Assembly (NCBI GenBank): GCA_030041335.1
Contig: JASHOB010000048.1
Location: 1 to 51,595 of the forward strand
Reading direction: 5' to 3'
DNA: 51,595 nucleotides
Source of the DNA: Alphaproteobacteria bacterium
Lineage (GTDB): Bacteria > Pseudomonadota > Alphaproteobacteria > ATCC43930 > CGMCC-115725
The notes beneath the pieces are model-generated. The model did not search any database. It saw only the letters and a program-made list of their open reading frames with translations, and had not been told where the DNA came from. A program made the translations under genes and the position numbers. Shown here piece by piece: positions 18,913 through 29,862 of this stretch. Position 1 is the first letter of the stretch; each line of letters opens with the position of its first letter.

Positions 18913-19851
18913 TCAGTTGCGGCGCGAGGATTTGGCCTTAGCCGTTCCGAACAGCGCATAAATCGCCGCGCGGAACCACCGATGGCCTTGATCGTGGTGG
19001 ACGCGCTCGTGCCAGAACTGGCCGATGTCGATGCGCGGGAGGGGGAGCGGCGTCGGAAAGACGACCAAGCCCAGCCTTTCGGCAAGCGGTTCCGCAAGCC
19101 TCGCCGGAAGGGTGCCGACCGCATCGGTGCAACTCGCGATAAATGCGCTGGTCACGAAGCTCGGCACGCGAACGTGGGCCCGGTCAGAATCAAGCCGCGA
19201 ATTGAGCACCTGCTCAAGCATGCGATGCGCCGCGTGCCCGGTGTGTGAGGAGGTGACGACGATATGACGCTCCCCCAGAAAGCAGTCTGCGCGGTGCAGC
19301 TTTTGTAACTGCGGATGGGTGCGCCGGGCGACGCTCACATACTGGTCGGTATAGAGCCGCTGCCGTCGGGTGTTGGGGGCCATCCCCGGAAATGCTCCCA
19401 ACGCGAGGTCCGCCTCTCCTGCCTCGAGACGTGCTTCCACTTGGCGCGAATCGAGCGGCACCGCCTTGAGCCGCAAGCCACGGCCCTCGCGCTCCAAATG
19501 CGCGATGATCGGCGGGATCATTTGGATCATGCCGACTTCGGTCACGATGATTGAAAACTCGCGTGTCGACGTACGCGGATCGAACGACGCGGCTGACGCG
19601 CGCATGGCCGCCGAATGCGTCAACAGCTCCTTCAAAGGCTGAGCTAGCCCCACCGCCTTCGGGGTCGGATGCATTGCCAGGCCGACACGCACGAACAGCG
19701 GATCGCCGAAGTGCGCCCGCAGCTTGGTCAGTATCTTGCTGATCGTCGGCTGCGTGGTGTTGAGGATCTCAGCGGCCCGCGTGAGGCTGCCGACCTCGAG
19801 CAGCAGGGTGAGTACCCGGAGATGGCGCAGGCTGACGTCGTCATCTTCCAT
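18913..19851 (-). CDS. LysR-family transcriptional regulator
   Basis: 312 residues. The N-terminal HTH is clear: LRHLRVLTLLLEVGSLTRAA, then EILNTTQPTISKILTKLRAH (about 9-48), followed by a LysR effector domain with REFSIIVTEVG at about 97. It is divergent from the binding-protein-like gene at 19992, which it probably controls in response to that pathway's substrate. A short dyad lies in the gap next to its start. Confidence 0.92.
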   Translation of the reverse strand: MEDDDVSLRHLRVLTLLLEVGSLTRAAEILNTTQPTISKILTKLRAHFGDPLFVRVGLAMHPTPKAVGLAQPLKELLTHSAAMRASAASFDPRTSTREFSIIVTEVGMIQMIPPIIAHLEREGRGLRLKAVPLDSRQVEARLEAGEADLALGAFPGMAPNTRRQRLYTDQYVSVARRTHPQLQKLHRADCFLGERHIVVTSSHTGHAAHRMLEQVLNSRLDSDRAHVRVPSFVTSAFIASCTDAVGTLPARLAEPLAERLGLVVFPTPLPLPRIDIGQFWHERVHHDQGHRWFRAAIYALFGTAKAKSSRRN

Positions 19852-19991: not shown

Positions 19992-20891
19992 ATGGATATC
20001 GAGCTGAAGAAGCGGGGATTCGTCATCCAGCCGCATTTCCGGCTGCAGGAATGGGTGGCCGAGGAAAAAGGCTACTTTCGGGACGAAGGCCTCGACTACG
20101 TGTTCGAGGAGACCGTCCGGTCGACGGAGGGCAAGTCGCACGACCAGGATGGCAGGAAATCCGGGGCATTTCAGACATTCGAGGAAGGTCGCACCTCCGA
20201 CGTGAGCTGCGCCTGCCACTGGACGGTGAACGTGGCCGCGTCCAAGGGCCACGGCAAGCTTTGGGCCGATATATATTCGGTGGCGCCCGGCGCGATCTTC
20301 GTCCCCGCGGACTCGCCCATCACGCGGCCGCAGGACCTCGCGGGAGTTCCGGTCTCGGTCGGCTATCAGTCCGGCAGCCACTATTCGAGCATCCAAGCAC
20401 TCGAGCAATATCTGCCGCGCGACCGGATCAACCTGACGTTTTCGGAAGGCATGCTGTTTAAGCGTCTCGACAATTTGCTCGAAGGCAAGTCCCAGGCCTC
20501 GACGCTGTTCAGCGGCCCCTACTACCTGGCGGAGCAGCTCGGATACCGCAAGATCATCGACACCACCTTTATGATTGCATCGATGATCACCGGCGACCCC
20601 GCCGAAGAGGATCTCAGGAAGTTCTACCGCGCCTTGAAGCGCGCCCAGCGCGATATCGATCTGCGCCCCGACCTCTACACGCACTACTACAGAAACGAGT
20701 TTCCCACGCAATATCACGCGATCATGGATACCGGCCGCTGGGGTCCGGGCGAGCGCATCGTTTTCGAGCCGTACACCGAGGCGGCCTTCTCGCAGTCGCG
20801 CGACTGGATCGCCGAGCGGGAGATTTTCGAGGGGGGAAAACCAGCGATGGGCTCCGACAGCTACAAGGACGTGGTCATCCGGGTTAACTGA
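19992..20891 (+). CDS. Periplasmic-binding-protein-like (NMT1/SsuA type) protein without signal peptide
   Basis: 299 residues with the NMT1/THI5-like fold: FRLQEWVAEEKGYFRDEGLD near the start, then QDLAGVPVSVGYQSGSHYSS at about 115-135. It begins MDIELKKRGFVIQPH and has no signal peptide or lipobox, and no upstream start would add one. No permease or ATPase gene is next to it. Cytoplasmic members of this superfamily can be enzymes (4,5-dihydroxyphthalate decarboxylase, Thi5), so a catalytic role is possible. An SCACHW segment near residue 74 is noteworthy but has no assigned function. Probably controlled by the divergent LysR. Confidence 0.75.
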   Translation: MDIELKKRGFVIQPHFRLQEWVAEEKGYFRDEGLDYVFEETVRSTEGKSHDQDGRKSGAFQTFEEGRTSDVSCACHWTVNVAASKGHGKLWADIYSVAPGAIFVPADSPITRPQDLAGVPVSVGYQSGSHYSSIQALEQYLPRDRINLTFSEGMLFKRLDNLLEGKSQASTLFSGPYYLAEQLGYRKIIDTTFMIASMITGDPAEEDLRKFYRALKRAQRDIDLRPDLYTHYYRNEFPTQYHAIMDTGRWGPGERIVFEPYTEAAFSQSRDWIAEREIFEGGKPAMGSDSYKDVVIRVN

Positions 20892-22860: not shown

Positions 22861-25512
22861 ATGCAAATCCCGGTTCTTCTCGATCGCTCGCAAAACGCCT
22901 CGCTGACAGAGCAGCTGGCGGAGCAACTGCGCAACGCCATCCGGCAGGGGCGCATTGCGTCGGGCACGCGCCTGCCGTCCTCGCGTCAACTGTCCGAGCA
23001 GCTCGAAATTTCGCGCAACACTGTGGTTCGCGCCTACGAGCAGCTCACCATGGAGGGCTATGTCGATTCCCGGCCGGCGTCCGGGATGTTCGCCGCGTTG
23101 CATCCACCCGATGAGCTGACGCGTCCGCGCGACGGCGCCGCCGATCCACCGCCGCAGGGCGGCCGCGCCGTCGACATGCCGATGCCGTTGTTGACGCCGC
23201 GCGCGCCGGTGTTGGCCGCGCAGCACCGCGGCCGCATTTCGTTCGATTTTTTTCCCGGGCGCCCGAACGCGGCGCTGTTTCCGATCAAGACTTGGCGGCG
23301 GCTGATCCACACCGCGCTATCGCATGGTGGGGCGCTCGGCCTGTCGGATTACGGCGATCCAGGCGGGCTGCCGGCGCTGCGCTCGGCACTCGCACATCAT
23401 CTCGCCGCCGCGCGCGGCGTCATCGCCGATCCGGCGCAGATCGTGATCGTCGCCGGCATTCAGGAAGGCATCAACATCGCCGCGCGTTTGTTCCTGGCGC
23501 CGGGCACCGTCGCCGCGGTGGAGACGCCCTGCTACCAGGGCGCCGCGTTCGCGTTCGAGGCGGCCGGCAGCACGCTCGCCAGCGTGCCGGTCGACGAAGA
23601 CGGGCTGATCCCCGACGACCTACCGAAGCGGCCGGCAGCCTTGCTCTATCTCACCCCATCGCATCAATATCCGACCGGCCACACTTTCTCTCTCGCGCGC
23701 CGTCACGCGGTCACCGCCTGGGCGCGGCGCACCGGCTGCTACATACTCGAGGACGACTACGACAGCGATTTCCGCTATGAGGGTTCGCCGCTGCCCGCGA
23801 TTGCCGGCATGGCGCCCGACTGCACCATCCACCTCGGCACGTTCTCGAAATCGCTCGGCGCCGGCTTGCGGCTCGGCTACATGGTCGTCCCGGCGCATCT
23901 GGCCGAGGCGGCGCGCCAGGTCAAAATGCTGTTCAACAGCGGCAATCCGTGGCTAGAGCAAGCGGCGCTGGCCGAGATGATCCGCAGCGGCAGTTACGCG
24001 GCGCATCTCACCCGCATTCGCGCGCATTATCGGGAAAACCGCGATTGCCTCCTCGTATCGCTGCACCGTCATTTCGGCGAGGTCGCGATCAGCGGCGACG
24101 CGGCCGGCCTCCATGTGTTTTGGGAGCTGCCGCCCGGCGTGCCCGACGCTGCAACGCTTGAGGGCTTGGCGCGGCGCGCTCGGGTCGGCATCTATTCGCT
24201 GCGTTCCGCTGCCGCGCATGAGCCGCAACCCTCGGCGCTATCGCGGCGCGGCATCGTGCTCGGCTATGCATCGCTGACGCCGCGCCAGATCGAGCAGGGC
24301 GTCGCGCGCCTGTCGGACGCGATCGACGAGACCCTCGACAACGAGCCGGCCTTCTTGAGCGAGCTCTTGGTCAACGCGCCGATCTCGTTGCGCGCACTGG
24401 CGCGACCGTCGGTCGCGCGACGTCCGCATCTGGCCCCTCAACTTCGTCAAAGACCGGCTCTACACGCCGTCCCCCCACGTCAGGCACCGTCATGGGCGAA
24501 CGTCACCGCAGCAGGCGGCATCGGCATGACCATCGTGTCCGGGATCTATCGCTACCCGATCAAGGGGCTCAGTCCGCAGCCGTTGCCGGGCATTGCACTG
24601 GAGGCGGACAAGCCCTTTCCGTTTGACCGCGTCTTCGCGCTGACACGTCCGGGCGTGCCGATCGACCCCGACGAGCCCAAATGGGCGAAGAAGGGCCTGT
24701 TCATCATGCTCATGCTCGAGGAGCAATTGGCACAGGTGCAGACCCGTCTCGACATCGACACGATGCACCTTACCATCGCCGCCAATGGGACGCAGCTGCT
24801 CGCCGCCAATCTCGACAGCGAGGCGGACCGCGCCGAGGTCGAGCGCTTCTTTCAGCGCCTCGTGGCGAAGCTGCCGGTGCCGCCTCGGTTGGTGCGGGCT
24901 CGCCGCGGGCATTTCATGGATAAGCCCGACAACGTGATGTCGCTAATCAATCTCGCGACGGTGCGCAGTCTCGAGGAATTATGGGGCTGCAAGATCGATC
25001 CGCTGCGCTTTCGCGCCAATTTCTATATCGACGGCGCCAAACCATGGCAGGAGTTCGACTGGATCGGCAGCGACATCCGGCTCGGCGATGCCGTATTCCG
25101 CGTCGACCGCCGCAACGGGCGATGCAGCGCCACCAATGTCGATCCGCTCACCGGCGTGCGCGATCTCGATATTCCCGGCTCGCTCCGCGCCTCGTTCGGG
25201 CATAAGGATCTCGGCGTCTATCTGGTGGCGCGCAAGGGCGGCAAGGTCGTGGTCGGCGATCCGGTCCATTACCCGAACGATGCCGTTCCGGGAGAGACGG
25301 CGCCGCCGCGCGCCGCGACGCCGGTCGTCGGGAATCGCACACATATTTGCCGCGGCTGTTATTTCATCTACGACGAAGCGCAGGGCGTCTCGCAGCAATC
25401 GATTCCAGGGGGGACCCCGTTCGCCGCGCTTCCCGACACCTGGCGCTGTCCCGACTGCGGCACCGATAAATCCACCTTTCGCCCACATCCTCTCAATGGC
25501 TCGTCCGCTTAA
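22861..25512 (+). CDS. MocR-type regulator in frame with MOSC-rubredoxin protein
   Basis: One uninterrupted frame of 883 codons. Residues 1-75 are a GntR wHTH (LPSSRQLSEQLEISRNTVVR). About 110-494 is a class I aminotransferase-like domain with LEDDYDSDFRYEG and the PLP Lys in TFSKSLGAGLR: together a MocR/PdxR regulator. After a 60-residue Arg/Pro/Ala-rich linker, an internal Met at 556 (24526) begins a MOSC_N and MOSC protein (MTIVSGIYRYPIKGLSPQPL). A rubredoxin with Cys830, 833, 863 and 866 (CRGC, CPDC) closes the frame. It may be translated as two proteins: GGCGG lies near the internal ATG. MOSC domains handle molybdenum-cofactor-type sulfur transfer or reduction; rubredoxin would supply electrons. 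Confidence 0.75.
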   Translation: MQIPVLLDRSQNASLTEQLAEQLRNAIRQGRIASGTRLPSSRQLSEQLEISRNTVVRAYEQLTMEGYVDSRPASGMFAALHPPDELTRPRDGAADPPPQGGRAVDMPMPLLTPRAPVLAAQHRGRISFDFFPGRPNAALFPIKTWRRLIHTALSHGGALGLSDYGDPGGLPALRSALAHHLAAARGVIADPAQIVIVAGIQEGINIAARLFLAPGTVAAVETPCYQGAAFAFEAAGSTLASVPVDEDGLIPDDLPKRPAALLYLTPSHQYPTGHTFSLARRHAVTAWARRTGCYILEDDYDSDFRYEGSPLPAIAGMAPDCTIHLGTFSKSLGAGLRLGYMVVPAHLAEAARQVKMLFNSGNPWLEQAALAEMIRSGSYAAHLTRIRAHYRENRDCLLVSLHRHFGEVAISGDAAGLHVFWELPPGVPDAATLEGLARRARVGIYSLRSAAAHEPQPSALSRRGIVLGYASLTPRQIEQGVARLSDAIDETLDNEPAFLSELLVNAPISLRALARPSVARRPHLAPQLRQRPALHAVPPRQAPSWANVTAAGGIGMTIVSGIYRYPIKGLSPQPLPGIALEADKPFPFDRVFALTRPGVPIDPDEPKWAKKGLFIMLMLEEQLAQVQTRLDIDTMHLTIAANGTQLLAANLDSEADRAEVERFFQRLVAKLPVPPRLVRARRGHFMDKPDNVMSLINLATVRSLEELWGCKIDPLRFRANFYIDGAKPWQEFDWIGSDIRLGDAVFRVDRRNGRCSATNVDPLTGVRDLDIPGSLRASFGHKDLGVYLVARKGGKVVVGDPVHYPNDAVPGETAPPRAATPVVGNRTHICRGCYFIYDEAQGVSQQSIPGGTPFAALPDTWRCPDCGTDKSTFRPHPLNGSSA

Positions 25513-27277: not shown

Positions 27278-27856
27278 CTACGCCGAAGCCTTGGCGCGTT
27301 CTCGGGTGTTTTCTTCCTTGAGCAGTCGCGCGACATCTTCCCAGCGGAACGGGCCGAGATCGATCTCGGCATGGACAGAGCCGCACCTCACGCAGGTGCG
27401 GCGTTGCGGATCGGCGCTGAAGGCCCGCGCAATGCGCGAGTAGGCTTCCTGCGCCAGCTCTTGCTTGAGCTCCCACACTTCTCGGTAGAGCTCGTGGCCA
27501 CAGCTCTCGCAATACCACGCGACGGCTTCCAGTTCCGATTCCGGCAACTTGTATCGGTACTGGATCGTCTCGCTCGTCGGTACGATCCGGTGCGGCACCC
27601 CGGCGGGCACATAGAGGTGGTCCCCGACCGTGTAGGAATGACGTCGCACGGAAGCGTCCTTGTATTCGACCTGACCCGAGCCCGAGAGGGCGAACAGCAC
27701 GGTGTCGTGCTGGCAGATGAGATGGAACGGCTGCGGCACGGCGTTCTTGCTTAGATGGATTTGCAGATCGAGGCTATCGGGCAGCATCGGCCGCTCGTCA
27801 TACGGGCCGGCTTTTGCCGCCTCGGCGAAGGTGAAAACCATGAGGTTGCGCGCCAT
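27278..27856 (-). CDS. 3-hydroxyanthranilate 3,4-dioxygenase-like cupin A (altered active site)
   Basis: 192 residues. The C-terminal part strongly resembles bacterial 3-hydroxyanthranilate dioxygenase (HAAO): AVAWYCESCGHELYREVWEL, then a second Cys pair in RRTCVRCG; Cys116/119/155/158 would hold the second, rubredoxin-like iron. In the cupin part, His45 and His89 (YVPAGVPH) match the metal ligands, but HAAO's Glu ligand is Asp51. The two substrate-binding arginines (four before the first His, four after the second) are Pro. The fold and metal site are therefore kept while the substrate differs. It starts one base after the stop of cupin B, so both are made together. Confidence 0.8.
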   Translation of the reverse strand: MARNLMVFTFAEAAKAGPYDERPMLPDSLDLQIHLSKNAVPQPFHLICQHDTVLFALSGSGQVEYKDASVRRHSYTVGDHLYVPAGVPHRIVPTSETIQYRYKLPESELEAVAWYCESCGHELYREVWELKQELAQEAYSRIARAFSADPQRRTCVRCGSVHAEIDLGPFRWEDVARLLKEENTRERAKASA

Positions 27857-27857
27857 A

Positions 27858-28571
27858 TCAATGCTCCCCCGTTCCGCCGGGGCCGTCCTGCGGTGGCGGT
27901 GCGGTACGCGCGGTTTGCATCGCTGTTAGACTGCGGCGGGCGATCTCGGCCTGGCTCGCGTAAACGTCCCAAGCCCAGGATTCGATCGGGAAGGGCGGGT
28001 TTTCATGGCCGCAGTGTTTGCATTTCCGTGCGGCCTCGTCTTCATTGAAGCGCTTCGCCGCCTCGAAACTTTCGAGGATGGTGAGGAAGGTCGTGGCGCC
28101 CTCGCCTCTCGACGTCCCACGCTTCGGCGGCGTGGCATCGTACTCCATGATGAAGAGCCGCCGATCGCACTTCTCGCAGACGAAGCGGACTTCCTCGCGC
28201 TGCTCCTTCGCAATCGACTGACGCTGCGTGATGACACTGATACCCATCGAATCCTGATCGTCAGGGTCTTGAAGCGGCCCCGCCACCATGTGCAGCTTAG
28301 GCCCGACTCTGACGAGGCCCGAACCGCGGGTAAGTTGGCCGACGCCGCCGAACATCACGAACACTTCATCTACCGTGTTGAAATGCTGAAATCGGCCGTA
28401 GCGCTTCCGCGGTCCGCCGCGAAAGCTGGCAACGCAGGGGACGATGGAGCCCTCGTCGAAATAGGGAAAGAGGGGAGCGAGTGCGGTCGTGGCGGTCTGC
28501 GCGAACCAGTAAACGTTGGTTTTGAGCGGCGGGCGATCGGGATCAGGTCGCGGAATGGTGAGGTCGGTCAT
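27858..28571 (-). CDS. HAAO-like cupin B with zinc-ribbon-type Cys pairs
   Basis: 237 residues. The cupin core has His63 and Glu69 (QHFNTVDEVFVMFGG), the HxxxxxE spacing of 3-hydroxyanthranilate dioxygenase. The position of the second metal His falls in GPLQDPDDQ with no His; the nearest is His94 in KLHMV. Cys132/135 (CEKC) and Cys184/187 (CKHC) repeat the C-terminal iron/zinc site. It differs strongly from cupin A, and the two incomplete sets of active-site residues suggest a heteromer or one catalytic and one structural subunit. Its start overlaps the stop of the TAXI-like gene (28568-28571). Confidence 0.75.
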   Translation of the reverse strand: MTDLTIPRPDPDRPPLKTNVYWFAQTATTALAPLFPYFDEGSIVPCVASFRGGPRKRYGRFQHFNTVDEVFVMFGGVGQLTRGSGLVRVGPKLHMVAGPLQDPDDQDSMGISVITQRQSIAKEQREEVRFVCEKCDRRLFIMEYDATPPKRGTSRGEGATTFLTILESFEAAKRFNEDEAARKCKHCGHENPPFPIESWAWDVYASQAEIARRSLTAMQTARTAPPPQDGPGGTGEH

Positions 28572-29533
28572 GGAATCACCTTTGCGTCGCGATAGTAACG
28601 TTCGGCGCCGGCGTGGAGCGGGAGGCTCGTGCTGGCAATCTTTGCTGGAACCAGCGGATAAGTGACGGGACTGTCCTTCGGCGGAATATGCCGGTACTGG
28701 CTTTCAAGCAGGCCCGGCGTTTCGCACAACACCGCCGCGATCGTGTAGGCGATGTCCTCGGGAAAATCGTCGCGGCAGAAGAGCAGGAAGTCCGAGAAAT
28801 CGAGGGCTTGGAAAGCCACCGTCAGGCCTGGGAACCGATCCGACGGAACGTCGGCGCGGCGCCAGGCGAAATCGCGCTCGACTTTTGCCAGTGCGTCGTC
28901 GTCGAACGGAATGAATTTCATCCTCCGCTTCGTGCACAGCTCTTTCCAGTGGGCCGTCATCACCGCCTCGAACAGCACCGCGTCCGCCTGCCCGCTGGTG
29001 ACAAGCGGGATCGTGTCCCACGGCCCTTCGCCGAGCAGCATCTTTCCGCCCCAGGATTGAATGGCCGCCGCCGACACACCTTCGGCCTCAAGCATGCGAT
29101 GCGCGGCGAAGCCTGTCATGTTAACGCCGTCGTCGTGCCCGGTCGTCAGGCGCAGCTTCGGCTTGTTGGCGCGCAGTTCGGCGAAACTGCTGATGCCGTA
29201 ACTCGCGTCGACCGCCAGTACCAGCCGATCGTCCTGGGGCAGCGTACCAAGCGCGCGCAACCGCTCGACATCGGGCCGACGTACGATGCCCTTCCGTTCG
29301 AATACGGTGCGCCCGAAGCCGGCCGGCACGAACAGCGCGATGTGGACATCGCCATCGAGGACCGCCGCGACCGCATCGCTTCCGCCGCGTCCCGCCCAGA
29401 TCGCGAATTTCGATCCCGCCGGCGATCGGCGCCATAGCTCAGCGCTGATCCAGCCGCAGATACGATGAAGGTTGGCGATGCCCCAGTCGCCCATCATGTG
29501 AAGGGTGATCTGACGATCGAGGCGAGCTTCCAT
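28568..29533 (-). CDS. TAXI-type TRAP solute receptor-like protein without signal peptide
   Basis: 321 residues from MEARLDRQITLHMMG; AAGGAG six bases upstream decides this start. The TAXI (NMT1_3) pattern is visible: WISAELWRRSPAGSKFAIWA early, DAVAAVLDGDVHIALF at about 60-75, and a C-terminal YPLVPAKIASTSLPLHAGAERYY. TAXI receptors are normally exported, but no signal peptide is present and no TRAP permease is nearby. Its stop overlaps the start of cupin B, so it is translated with two cytoplasmic enzymes, suggesting a cytoplasmic ligand-binding or enzymatic role. Confidence 0.78.
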   Translation of the reverse strand: MEARLDRQITLHMMGDWGIANLHRICGWISAELWRRSPAGSKFAIWAGRGGSDAVAAVLDGDVHIALFVPAGFGRTVFERKGIVRRPDVERLRALGTLPQDDRLVLAVDASYGISSFAELRANKPKLRLTTGHDDGVNMTGFAAHRMLEAEGVSAAAIQSWGGKMLLGEGPWDTIPLVTSGQADAVLFEAVMTAHWKELCTKRRMKFIPFDDDALAKVERDFAWRRADVPSDRFPGLTVAFQALDFSDFLLFCRDDFPEDIAYTIAAVLCETPGLLESQYRHIPPKDSPVTYPLVPAKIASTSLPLHAGAERYYRDAKVIP

Positions 29534-29862
29534 TCGCGGCTCCTTGTGCACGAGAGGCGCAAGCTTATCGCCTAAATTAGCAGCGCCCCAGTCCGGCGGA
29601 GCACATCAGCAAGGTGCCAGACCCACGCCACCCGCCGAAGAGGCGCCCGCCATCGGTTGACACCCGCTCCACGACATGTTTATCACGCCGGCAATTTCGA
29701 CGTGTTCGCTTAACGCATCAGCGGCCGGCTTCAGAATAGGCATATTGAACAGCCATTAGAAGAGGTTCCTGCACCGCGGCAGCATCCAAATCTTCTCGAT
29801 CCCGATCATGATCTTCCCATCCGCGTCTTACCACGGTCAAAAGGCCCTATAATTTCCGCACC
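29534..29862. other. Divergent intergenic region
   Basis: Holds the promoters of the TAXI-like/cupin operon (minus) and of the threonine aldolase-like gene (plus). No gene, operator-like dyad or hairpin was recognised. Confidence 0.5.

Follow-up and report, generated by a model that had tools for sequence, protein, structure and literature searches.

The window analysed here, the whole 51,595-nucleotide contig JASHOB010000048.1 of an alphaproteobacterial genome (assembly GCA_030041335.1), carries on its minus strand, between positions 27278 and 29533, a compact unit of three genes encoding a TAXI-like protein and two cupins, here named CupA and CupB. The TAXI-like gene (28568-29533) codes for 321 amino acids (aa) with a periplasmic-binding fold (PF16868), no signal peptide and the motif GDWGxANxHR at residues 15-24, and the ATG at 29533 was preferred as its start over a GTG at 29551 because a probable ribosome-binding site, AAGGAG, is read at 29540-29545. 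Its stop overlaps the start of cupA by four bases (ATGA, 28568-28571), and a single base (27857) separates cupA from the ATG of cupB at 27856, for which a probable ribosome-binding site (GGGGGAG, 27864-27870) lies within the 3' end of cupA. CupA (27858-28571, 237 aa) is, judged by its open reading frame (ORF) and its conservation, the probable catalytic cupin subunit, with a site of four cysteines (Cys4; C132/C135/C184/C187) and the putative metal ligands His63 (codon 28383-28385), Glu69 (28365-28367) and His94 (28290-28292). CupB (27278-27856, 192 aa) is a cupin resembling 3-hydroxyanthranilate dioxygenase (HAAO) with a degenerate metal site and, by profiles and conservation, a probable structural partner of CupA. 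The coordinates, strand and junctions of the three ORFs were all as an earlier note on this DNA had described them, according to the ORF list and our reading of the sequence.

Profile and tblastn searches with CupA or CupB yielded 15 CupA loci, in which the presence of CupA is fixed by the search design and only the accompanying genes count as a result. They comprise the window, contig C55 of the window's own genome (L009/L020), the Rhodospirillales metagenome-assembled genome (MAG) G016 of the same family (L022), Actinomadura sp. OS1-43 (L023), a Bradyrhizobiaceae MAG with two loci (L024, L084), the Phaeobacter gallaeciensis plasmid pGal_C110 (L028), the Sphingobium sp. AntQ-1 plasmid pANTQ-1 (L029) and seven loci (L077-L083) in six genomes of the Actinomadura genome's family. 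Seven Phaeobacter plasmid records represent one lineage and were counted once, two loci each stem from G1441, the Bradyrhizobiaceae MAG and the window's genome, and the gene ends in the alignment rows of L077-L084 are tblastn stretches, not gene calls. CupB lies adjacent to or is fused with CupA in 15 out of 15 loci, so the grouping of the cupins goes beyond chance. Furthermore, both loci of the Bradyrhizobiaceae MAG encode the cupins as a single protein with CupB first (ORFs of 439 and 475 aa), which supports the view that the two are probable partners. Two of the loci have an unusual make-up: L077 (8688-10684, genome G1318) shows the order CupA-CupB-CupA with one CupB between two CupA copies, and L083 (9544-10307, genome G1446) holds a truncated remnant of both genes.

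The residues distinguish the two cupins clearly. In the alignment of all 15 CupA copies, H63, N65, E69, H94, Q116, Q118, E126 and the four cysteines are invariant, and the H63-x5-E69 spacing equals that between the first and the second iron ligand of HAAO. At residue 45 of CupB, the candidate first ligand, His occurs in six, Phe in seven and Tyr in one of 14 copies; D51 is the same throughout, residue 89 is a His in 11 copies and a Cys in three, and all four cysteines are kept in 12 out of 14. Going by these residues, CupB, which the databases recognise as HAAO-like, has a broken metal site, whereas the unrecognised CupA keeps the ligands. Because CupB has lost the first ligand, CupA retains the triad and one MAG fuses the cupins twice, CupA and CupB probably form one heteromeric oxygenase with one active site.

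Sequence comparisons place both cupins at a distance from HAAO. CupB matched the HAAO model NF009763 with E 3.7e-12, which is below threshold, and HAAO in the PDB with E 6e-7; the curated HAAO cut-offs of 220 and 145.95 bits were missed by CupB (46.6 and 41.7 bits, respectively) and by CupA (19.8 and 13.9 bits). CupA exceeded the cut-off of no Pfam or NCBIfam family, and its likeness to HAAO is weak, consisting of a 22-residue match in the Cys tail (E 6e-4) and a profile-profile comparison with E 6.5e-6 and a probability of 85%. Searched against the PDB, the CupA sequence had no match and the CupA profile two chance-level matches only; DmmA-like_C was matched with E 0.1. In an AlphaFold model of the fused L024 cupin the CupB half is good and the CupA half poor, and the first matches of this model in a fold search were human 3HAO and bacterial HAAO. 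The earlier description of two HAAO-like cupins leaves out an essential difference, only CupA having kept the metal triad. L025 from Lysobacter was left out of all counts: its CupA match covers 86 Cys-tail residues at 27% identity only, RidA-, amidohydrolase- and kynureninase-like ORFs adjoin by eye, and it looks like an ordinary HAAO. Other weak CupB matches, with 25-32% identity, were also excluded from the counts.

A ferredoxin or reductase gene directly follows the cupin pair in six out of 14 intact loci. L024 and L084 have a Rieske ferredoxin there, AntQ-1 has an oxidoreductase that contains Fer2 and flavin adenine dinucleotide (FAD) domains and weakly matches nicotinamide adenine dinucleotide (NAD) domains, and L080, L081 and L082 have a Fer4-type ferredoxin of 65-70 residues followed by a Pyr_redox/Reductase_C reductase. 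Among ten further neighbours scanned in L080-L082, a subset of the ORFs there, no P450 or Rieske oxygenase was found that could claim the reductase, and L080 has two FAD hydroxylases at distances of about 4 and 5.5 kb. In C55 and in G1270 (L079) an acyl-CoA-dehydrogenase-like flavoprotein is encoded downstream instead, and by eye a comparable ORF is present in G1307 (L078). These redox neighbours are the strongest hint, and a hint only, that the cupin pair is no plain dioxygenase. Alternatively, CupA/CupB might be a self-sufficient ring-cleaving dioxygenase of the HAAO type without need for external electrons. The ferredoxins would then only re-reduce iron that has become oxidised, in the way XylT serves catechol 2,3-dioxygenase, and the TAXI-like protein would act in the same pathway as enzyme or carrier. 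The kinship to HAAO, the HAAO-like H-x5-E spacing and the eight of 14 intact loci, including the window, that have no ferredoxin or reductase directly after the pair speak for this explanation, but three loci with both ferredoxin and ferredoxin reductase and the complete reductase of AntQ-1 exceed what reactivation would need, and we regard it as possible yet doubtful. At the other end, CupA/CupB could be the terminal component of a ferredoxin-fed oxygenase in which electrons reach a 2-His-1-Glu iron via Cys4, making it the cupin equivalent of a Rieske oxygenase, with the TAXI clade as a new family of binding-fold enzymes processing the product; in this full form the proposal seems rather unlikely. 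As to the ring-cleavage role suggested earlier, plain ring cleavage is possible, but the ferredoxin and reductase neighbours bring a rival chemistry into play.

Turning to the third gene, TAXI accompanies the cupins in ten of the 15 loci (window, G016, C55, L023, L024, L028, L077, L078, L079 and L084). The earlier note had suggested a three-part complex with its product as a subunit. A cytoplasmic role in binding or carrying a ligand for the cupin enzyme would suit this linkage and the overlapping genes of the window and G016. However, the exact order TAXI-CupA-CupB is conserved in these two loci only and not in the other 13; elsewhere TAXI is divergent from the cupins (as in three actinobacterial loci), several kilobases distant, decayed or missing, and no match to the TAXI-like protein was found in the stretches covered around L080, L081, L082 and L083. 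In C55, the TAXI copy (L020 9902-10835), with 76-79% identity to the window protein over the first 180 residues and 63-68% beyond, is broken by frameshifts and a stop and lies opposite an intact cupA-cupB-flavoprotein set, so that the cupins outlast the TAXI gene there. TAXI also occurs apart from the cupins: a second Phaeobacter copy lies on the same plasmid 10 kb from them, beside other ring-cleavage genes, and G177, judged CupA-free from a genome sample in which only the window's genome matched CupA, has a relative (L043 7993-9168, start uncertain) whose neighbours are an FAD aromatic hydroxylase and a VanA-like Rieske oxygenase. A three-part complex is therefore not supported, and a subunit or carrier role appears very improbable; the TAXI-like protein is probably a separate cytoplasmic enzyme.

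A small SCO4226-like protein (PF14026, just below threshold) is encoded directly before TAXI in L023 (12873-13157), L077, L078 and L079, and before cupA in C55 (L009 497-775). The downstream DsbA-like and RidA genes were rejected as members of the unit, tblastn being negative for them in L020, L021, L023, L024 and L025 (E 1e-3); in G016 a distant RidA-family gene lies 4.6 kb past the TAXI gene (L021:18598-19065). The reading as an aminomuconate deaminase is weakened.

The TAXI-like protein scored 50.3 bits against PF16868 (cut-off 27) and 39.9 bits against TIGR02122 TRAP_TAXI, under the cut-off of 84.35. Its structure model (predicted local distance difference test, pLDDT, of 71) matched the TAXI fold with a Foldseek E of 2e-18 and was closest to TAXI receptors (Z 21.6-24.9, the next entry reaching 14.2), with Thi5 among the fold matches. 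The absence of a signal peptide and of a permease, both reported in the earlier note, was upheld. The highest Kyte-Doolittle mean over 11 residues within the first 45 residues is 0.83, compared to 2.07-2.50 in four permease-linked TAXI receptors, and neither the window protein nor its nine nearest relatives examined have a hydrophobic leader, a call based on hydropathy and not on SignalP. The host genome contains no TRAP_fused permease over the cut-off (one match of 82 bits against 320.65, on another contig), nor do the Actinomadura and G784 genomes, and the Bradyrhizobiaceae MAG has one, also on another contig.

A role as cytoplasmic sensor or regulator of uptake, or as a transporter accessory reaching the periplasm by another route, would fit the transporter genes that adjoin TAXI in three loci, namely MFS in G016, where the gene overlaps the TAXI start, TRAP DctP/DctQM in L024, and an ABC ATPase with permease in L084. 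The transporter type differs each time, though, the L024 TRAP system has its own DctP with a leader, ten clade members lack a leader and a TAXI-TRAP permease over the cut-off is absent from three of the four genomes checked, which makes this role improbable.

The clade of ten, made up of the window protein, G016, L023, L024, L028, L077, L078, L079, L084 and the second Phaeobacter copy, shares D16, W17, N21, H23, R24, E189 and F246-S247-D248. The motif GDWG..N.HR occurs in 10 out of 10 members and in none of the four permease-linked receptors, from all of which D16, W17, H23, R24 and E189 are absent; the Phaeobacter receptor shares N21, F246 and D248, however, and the Aromatoleum receptor S247. 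E189 and the FS motif are retained in each of four distant relatives with no adjoining CupA gene, namely G177, Aminobacter, Hymenobacter and G152. One alignment sets H23 and R24 against the YY of the Loktanella receptor and P70, which is also seen in the Phaeobacter receptor, against its QSD, and a second alignment is shifted by one residue; we take this YY for Y45-Y46 and this QSD for Q93 of VcGluP. In VcGluP, Y45 and Q93 are reported to matter most for glutamate (PMC11574862). By this comparison the pocket entrance of the TAXI clade looks rebuilt, the exact residue correspondence differing between the alignments. An aromatic-acid pocket in a TAXI fold is plausible because TAXI-TRAP systems are listed among the known phthalate importers (PMC13040137).

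A possible activity for such a protein is hinted at by Sphingobium AntQ-1, where cupA is preceded by the gene for a leaderless, binding-protein-like homologue of PDB 9jp7 (E 6.5e-87), an entry whose record title is 4,5-dihydroxyphthalate decarboxylase. The AntQ-1 order, decarboxylase homologue, CupA, CupB and reductase, appears by analogy to mimic a phthalate operon with the cupins in the place of the oxygenase. A study on this strain, whose main text does not contain the word cupin, reports pht2345 to be up-regulated on anthraquinone, with pht3 being sphantq_4492, five tags from btuB (sphantq_4487) (PMC9836352); by tag counting, sphantq_4492 could be the reductase gene beside cupB. Aromatic-type neighbours of the loci include 3-hydroxybenzoate 6-monooxygenase, cupin, FAH, Rieske and amidohydrolase genes. 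FAD hydroxylase, cupin and FAH genes lie nearby in Actinomadura, L077, L078, L079 and Phaeobacter, annotated in the latter as 3-hydroxybenzoate 6-monooxygenase, cupin and FAH; names such as gentisate dioxygenase for the L023 genes are a reading of Pfam domains and neighbours. These loci could contain a gentisate-type route, which a decarboxylated hydroxyphthalate could enter.

Gene content, linkage, fusion, residue conservation, the lack of a leader, the lack of a host permease over the cut-off and the redox neighbours were all computed. We favour, tentatively and at somewhat less than an even chance, an aromatic-acid module consisting of a heteromeric CupA/CupB iron oxygenase and a separate cytoplasmic TAXI-like enzyme. 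Such a horizontally spread catabolic module would contribute two activities. CupA/CupB would be an oxygenase with non-heme iron that descends from HAAO-type cupins, in which CupA would hold the iron (H63, E69, H94) and a rubredoxin-like Cys4 site, and CupB would serve as a structural or regulatory half that kept the fold and lost the metal site. It would oxidise an aromatic (hydroxy)carboxylic acid, and a dedicated ferredoxin would feed it electrons in at least part of the family. The TAXI-like protein would descend from a receptor, having lost the export signal and become a cytoplasmic enzyme for the neighbouring step, most likely the removal of a carboxyl group, as in the leaderless binding-protein-like 4,5-dihydroxyphthalate decarboxylase.

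Several observations weigh against the proposed module. The window locus has no clear aromatic pathway adjoining, and no redox gene adjoins the cupins in the window or in G016. L023 and L028 contain genes for VOC-type dioxygenases, by which ring cleavage could proceed there without the cupins, and the triad geometry in CupA is merely presumed, the CupA half of the fused model being poor. On the TAXI side, PDB 9jp7 was not among the 50 fold matches listed in either fold search of the TAXI-like model, which excludes nothing, nor among the four matches at E up to 1 in the PDB sequences; the TAXI-like protein matches PF16868 and the decarboxylase PF12974, and it may be by coincidence that one replaces the other in aromatic operons. 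The transporter genes adjoining TAXI in three loci count here as well, and on the Phaeobacter plasmid a TAXI receptor with its own fused permease lies about 7 kb from the leaderless TAXI gene. Since the deeper branches of the CupA and CupB trees (seven rows each) disagree, with the window and G016 grouped in both, the trees add no evidence of strict co-inheritance. The heteromer, the iron, the oxygenation, the electron flow, the decarboxylation and the substrate are all what we infer.

The module is rare. CupA was found in one out of 385 class genomes and one out of 398 phylum genomes, both times the window's own, in two out of 39 family and two out of 43 order genomes, the window's own included in both, these four samples overlapping, in one out of 371 genomes of the Bradyrhizobiaceae MAG's family (that MAG itself) and in seven out of 298 genomes of the Actinomadura genome's family, the Actinomadura genome included. 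When 84,980 species genomes were scanned narrowly with two patterns, four loci were confirmed, one of the four being the HAAO-like and uncounted L025. Because a rare module is common to Alphaproteobacteria and Actinomadura relatives and is partly located on plasmids, its distribution points to horizontal spread. None of the three proteins was matched by PADLOC, and an identity as defence system was dropped for this reason; a phage origin was likewise dropped, CupA being matched by no phage record.

Compared with known systems, HAAO (NbaC; PF06052, NF009763) shares the CupB fold and the Cys4 tail, and with CupA the H-x5-E...H pattern and the Cys4 tail, but here there are two genes, ligands kept in CupA only, scores far under the family cut-offs and redox partners in part of the family. 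Kynureninase, present at two of three plasmid HAAO loci examined, is not found among the annotated or Pfam-scanned cupin neighbours. The two-subunit hydroquinone 1,2-dioxygenase is a heterotetramer of two different cupins with one working metal site, which the CupA/CupB conservation pattern fits; HAAO kinship and Cys4 sites are not mentioned for it in the accessible part of PMC10306065, a comparison by description only, and no PDB chain named hydroquinone dioxygenase matched CupA or CupB. Human HAAO, which the fused L024 protein matches first, and other bicupins likewise have two cupins per chain, but are encoded by a single gene, whereas here there are mostly two genes, fused in one MAG only. 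The TAXI-TRAP binding proteins VcGluP and TtGluBP share the fold, but the window protein has no leader or adjoining permease gene, carries GDWGxANxHR in place of the tyrosine motif and has an extra loop of the HIPPxxSPVTYPL type. The 4,5-dihydroxyphthalate decarboxylase (PDB 9jp7) is likewise leaderless and binding-protein-like, with a homologue before cupA in AntQ-1, but belongs to another Pfam family than the window TAXI, with kinship at the level of fold at most. In the open-access literature, mostly without subscription journals, we found no description of the gene set, of a leaderless TAXI clade or of an HAAO-like enzyme that is split and has redox partners; the individual folds are known, and their combination is, within this literature, probably undescribed.

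Elsewhere in the window, an 883-aa ORF on the plus strand (22861-25512) combines a MocR-type regulator (GntR and aminotransferase) with MOSC_N, MOSC and rubredoxin, an unusual fusion unless it is a sequencing artefact. The protein encoded at 19992-20891, also on the plus strand, lacks a leader and matches NMT1/THI5 weakly; it is possibly a second cytoplasmic binding-fold protein, and a LysR gene (18913-19851, minus strand) adjoins its gene.

In annotated records, CupA and CupB are listed as hypothetical proteins and the TAXI-like protein as part of a transporter, and a probable enzyme system goes unnoticed behind these labels. Should the TAXI-like protein prove catalytic, it would join, in aromatic degradation, the few binding-protein folds turned enzymes, such as Thi5 and, going by record titles, 4,5-dihydroxyphthalate decarboxylase. 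Should CupA/CupB need a ferredoxin, this would represent an unusual oxygen activation on a cupin and would test the role of Cys4 in HAAO-type enzymes, and the rubredoxin-like site of the HAAO relatives would gain a job if the ferredoxin-fed reading is true.

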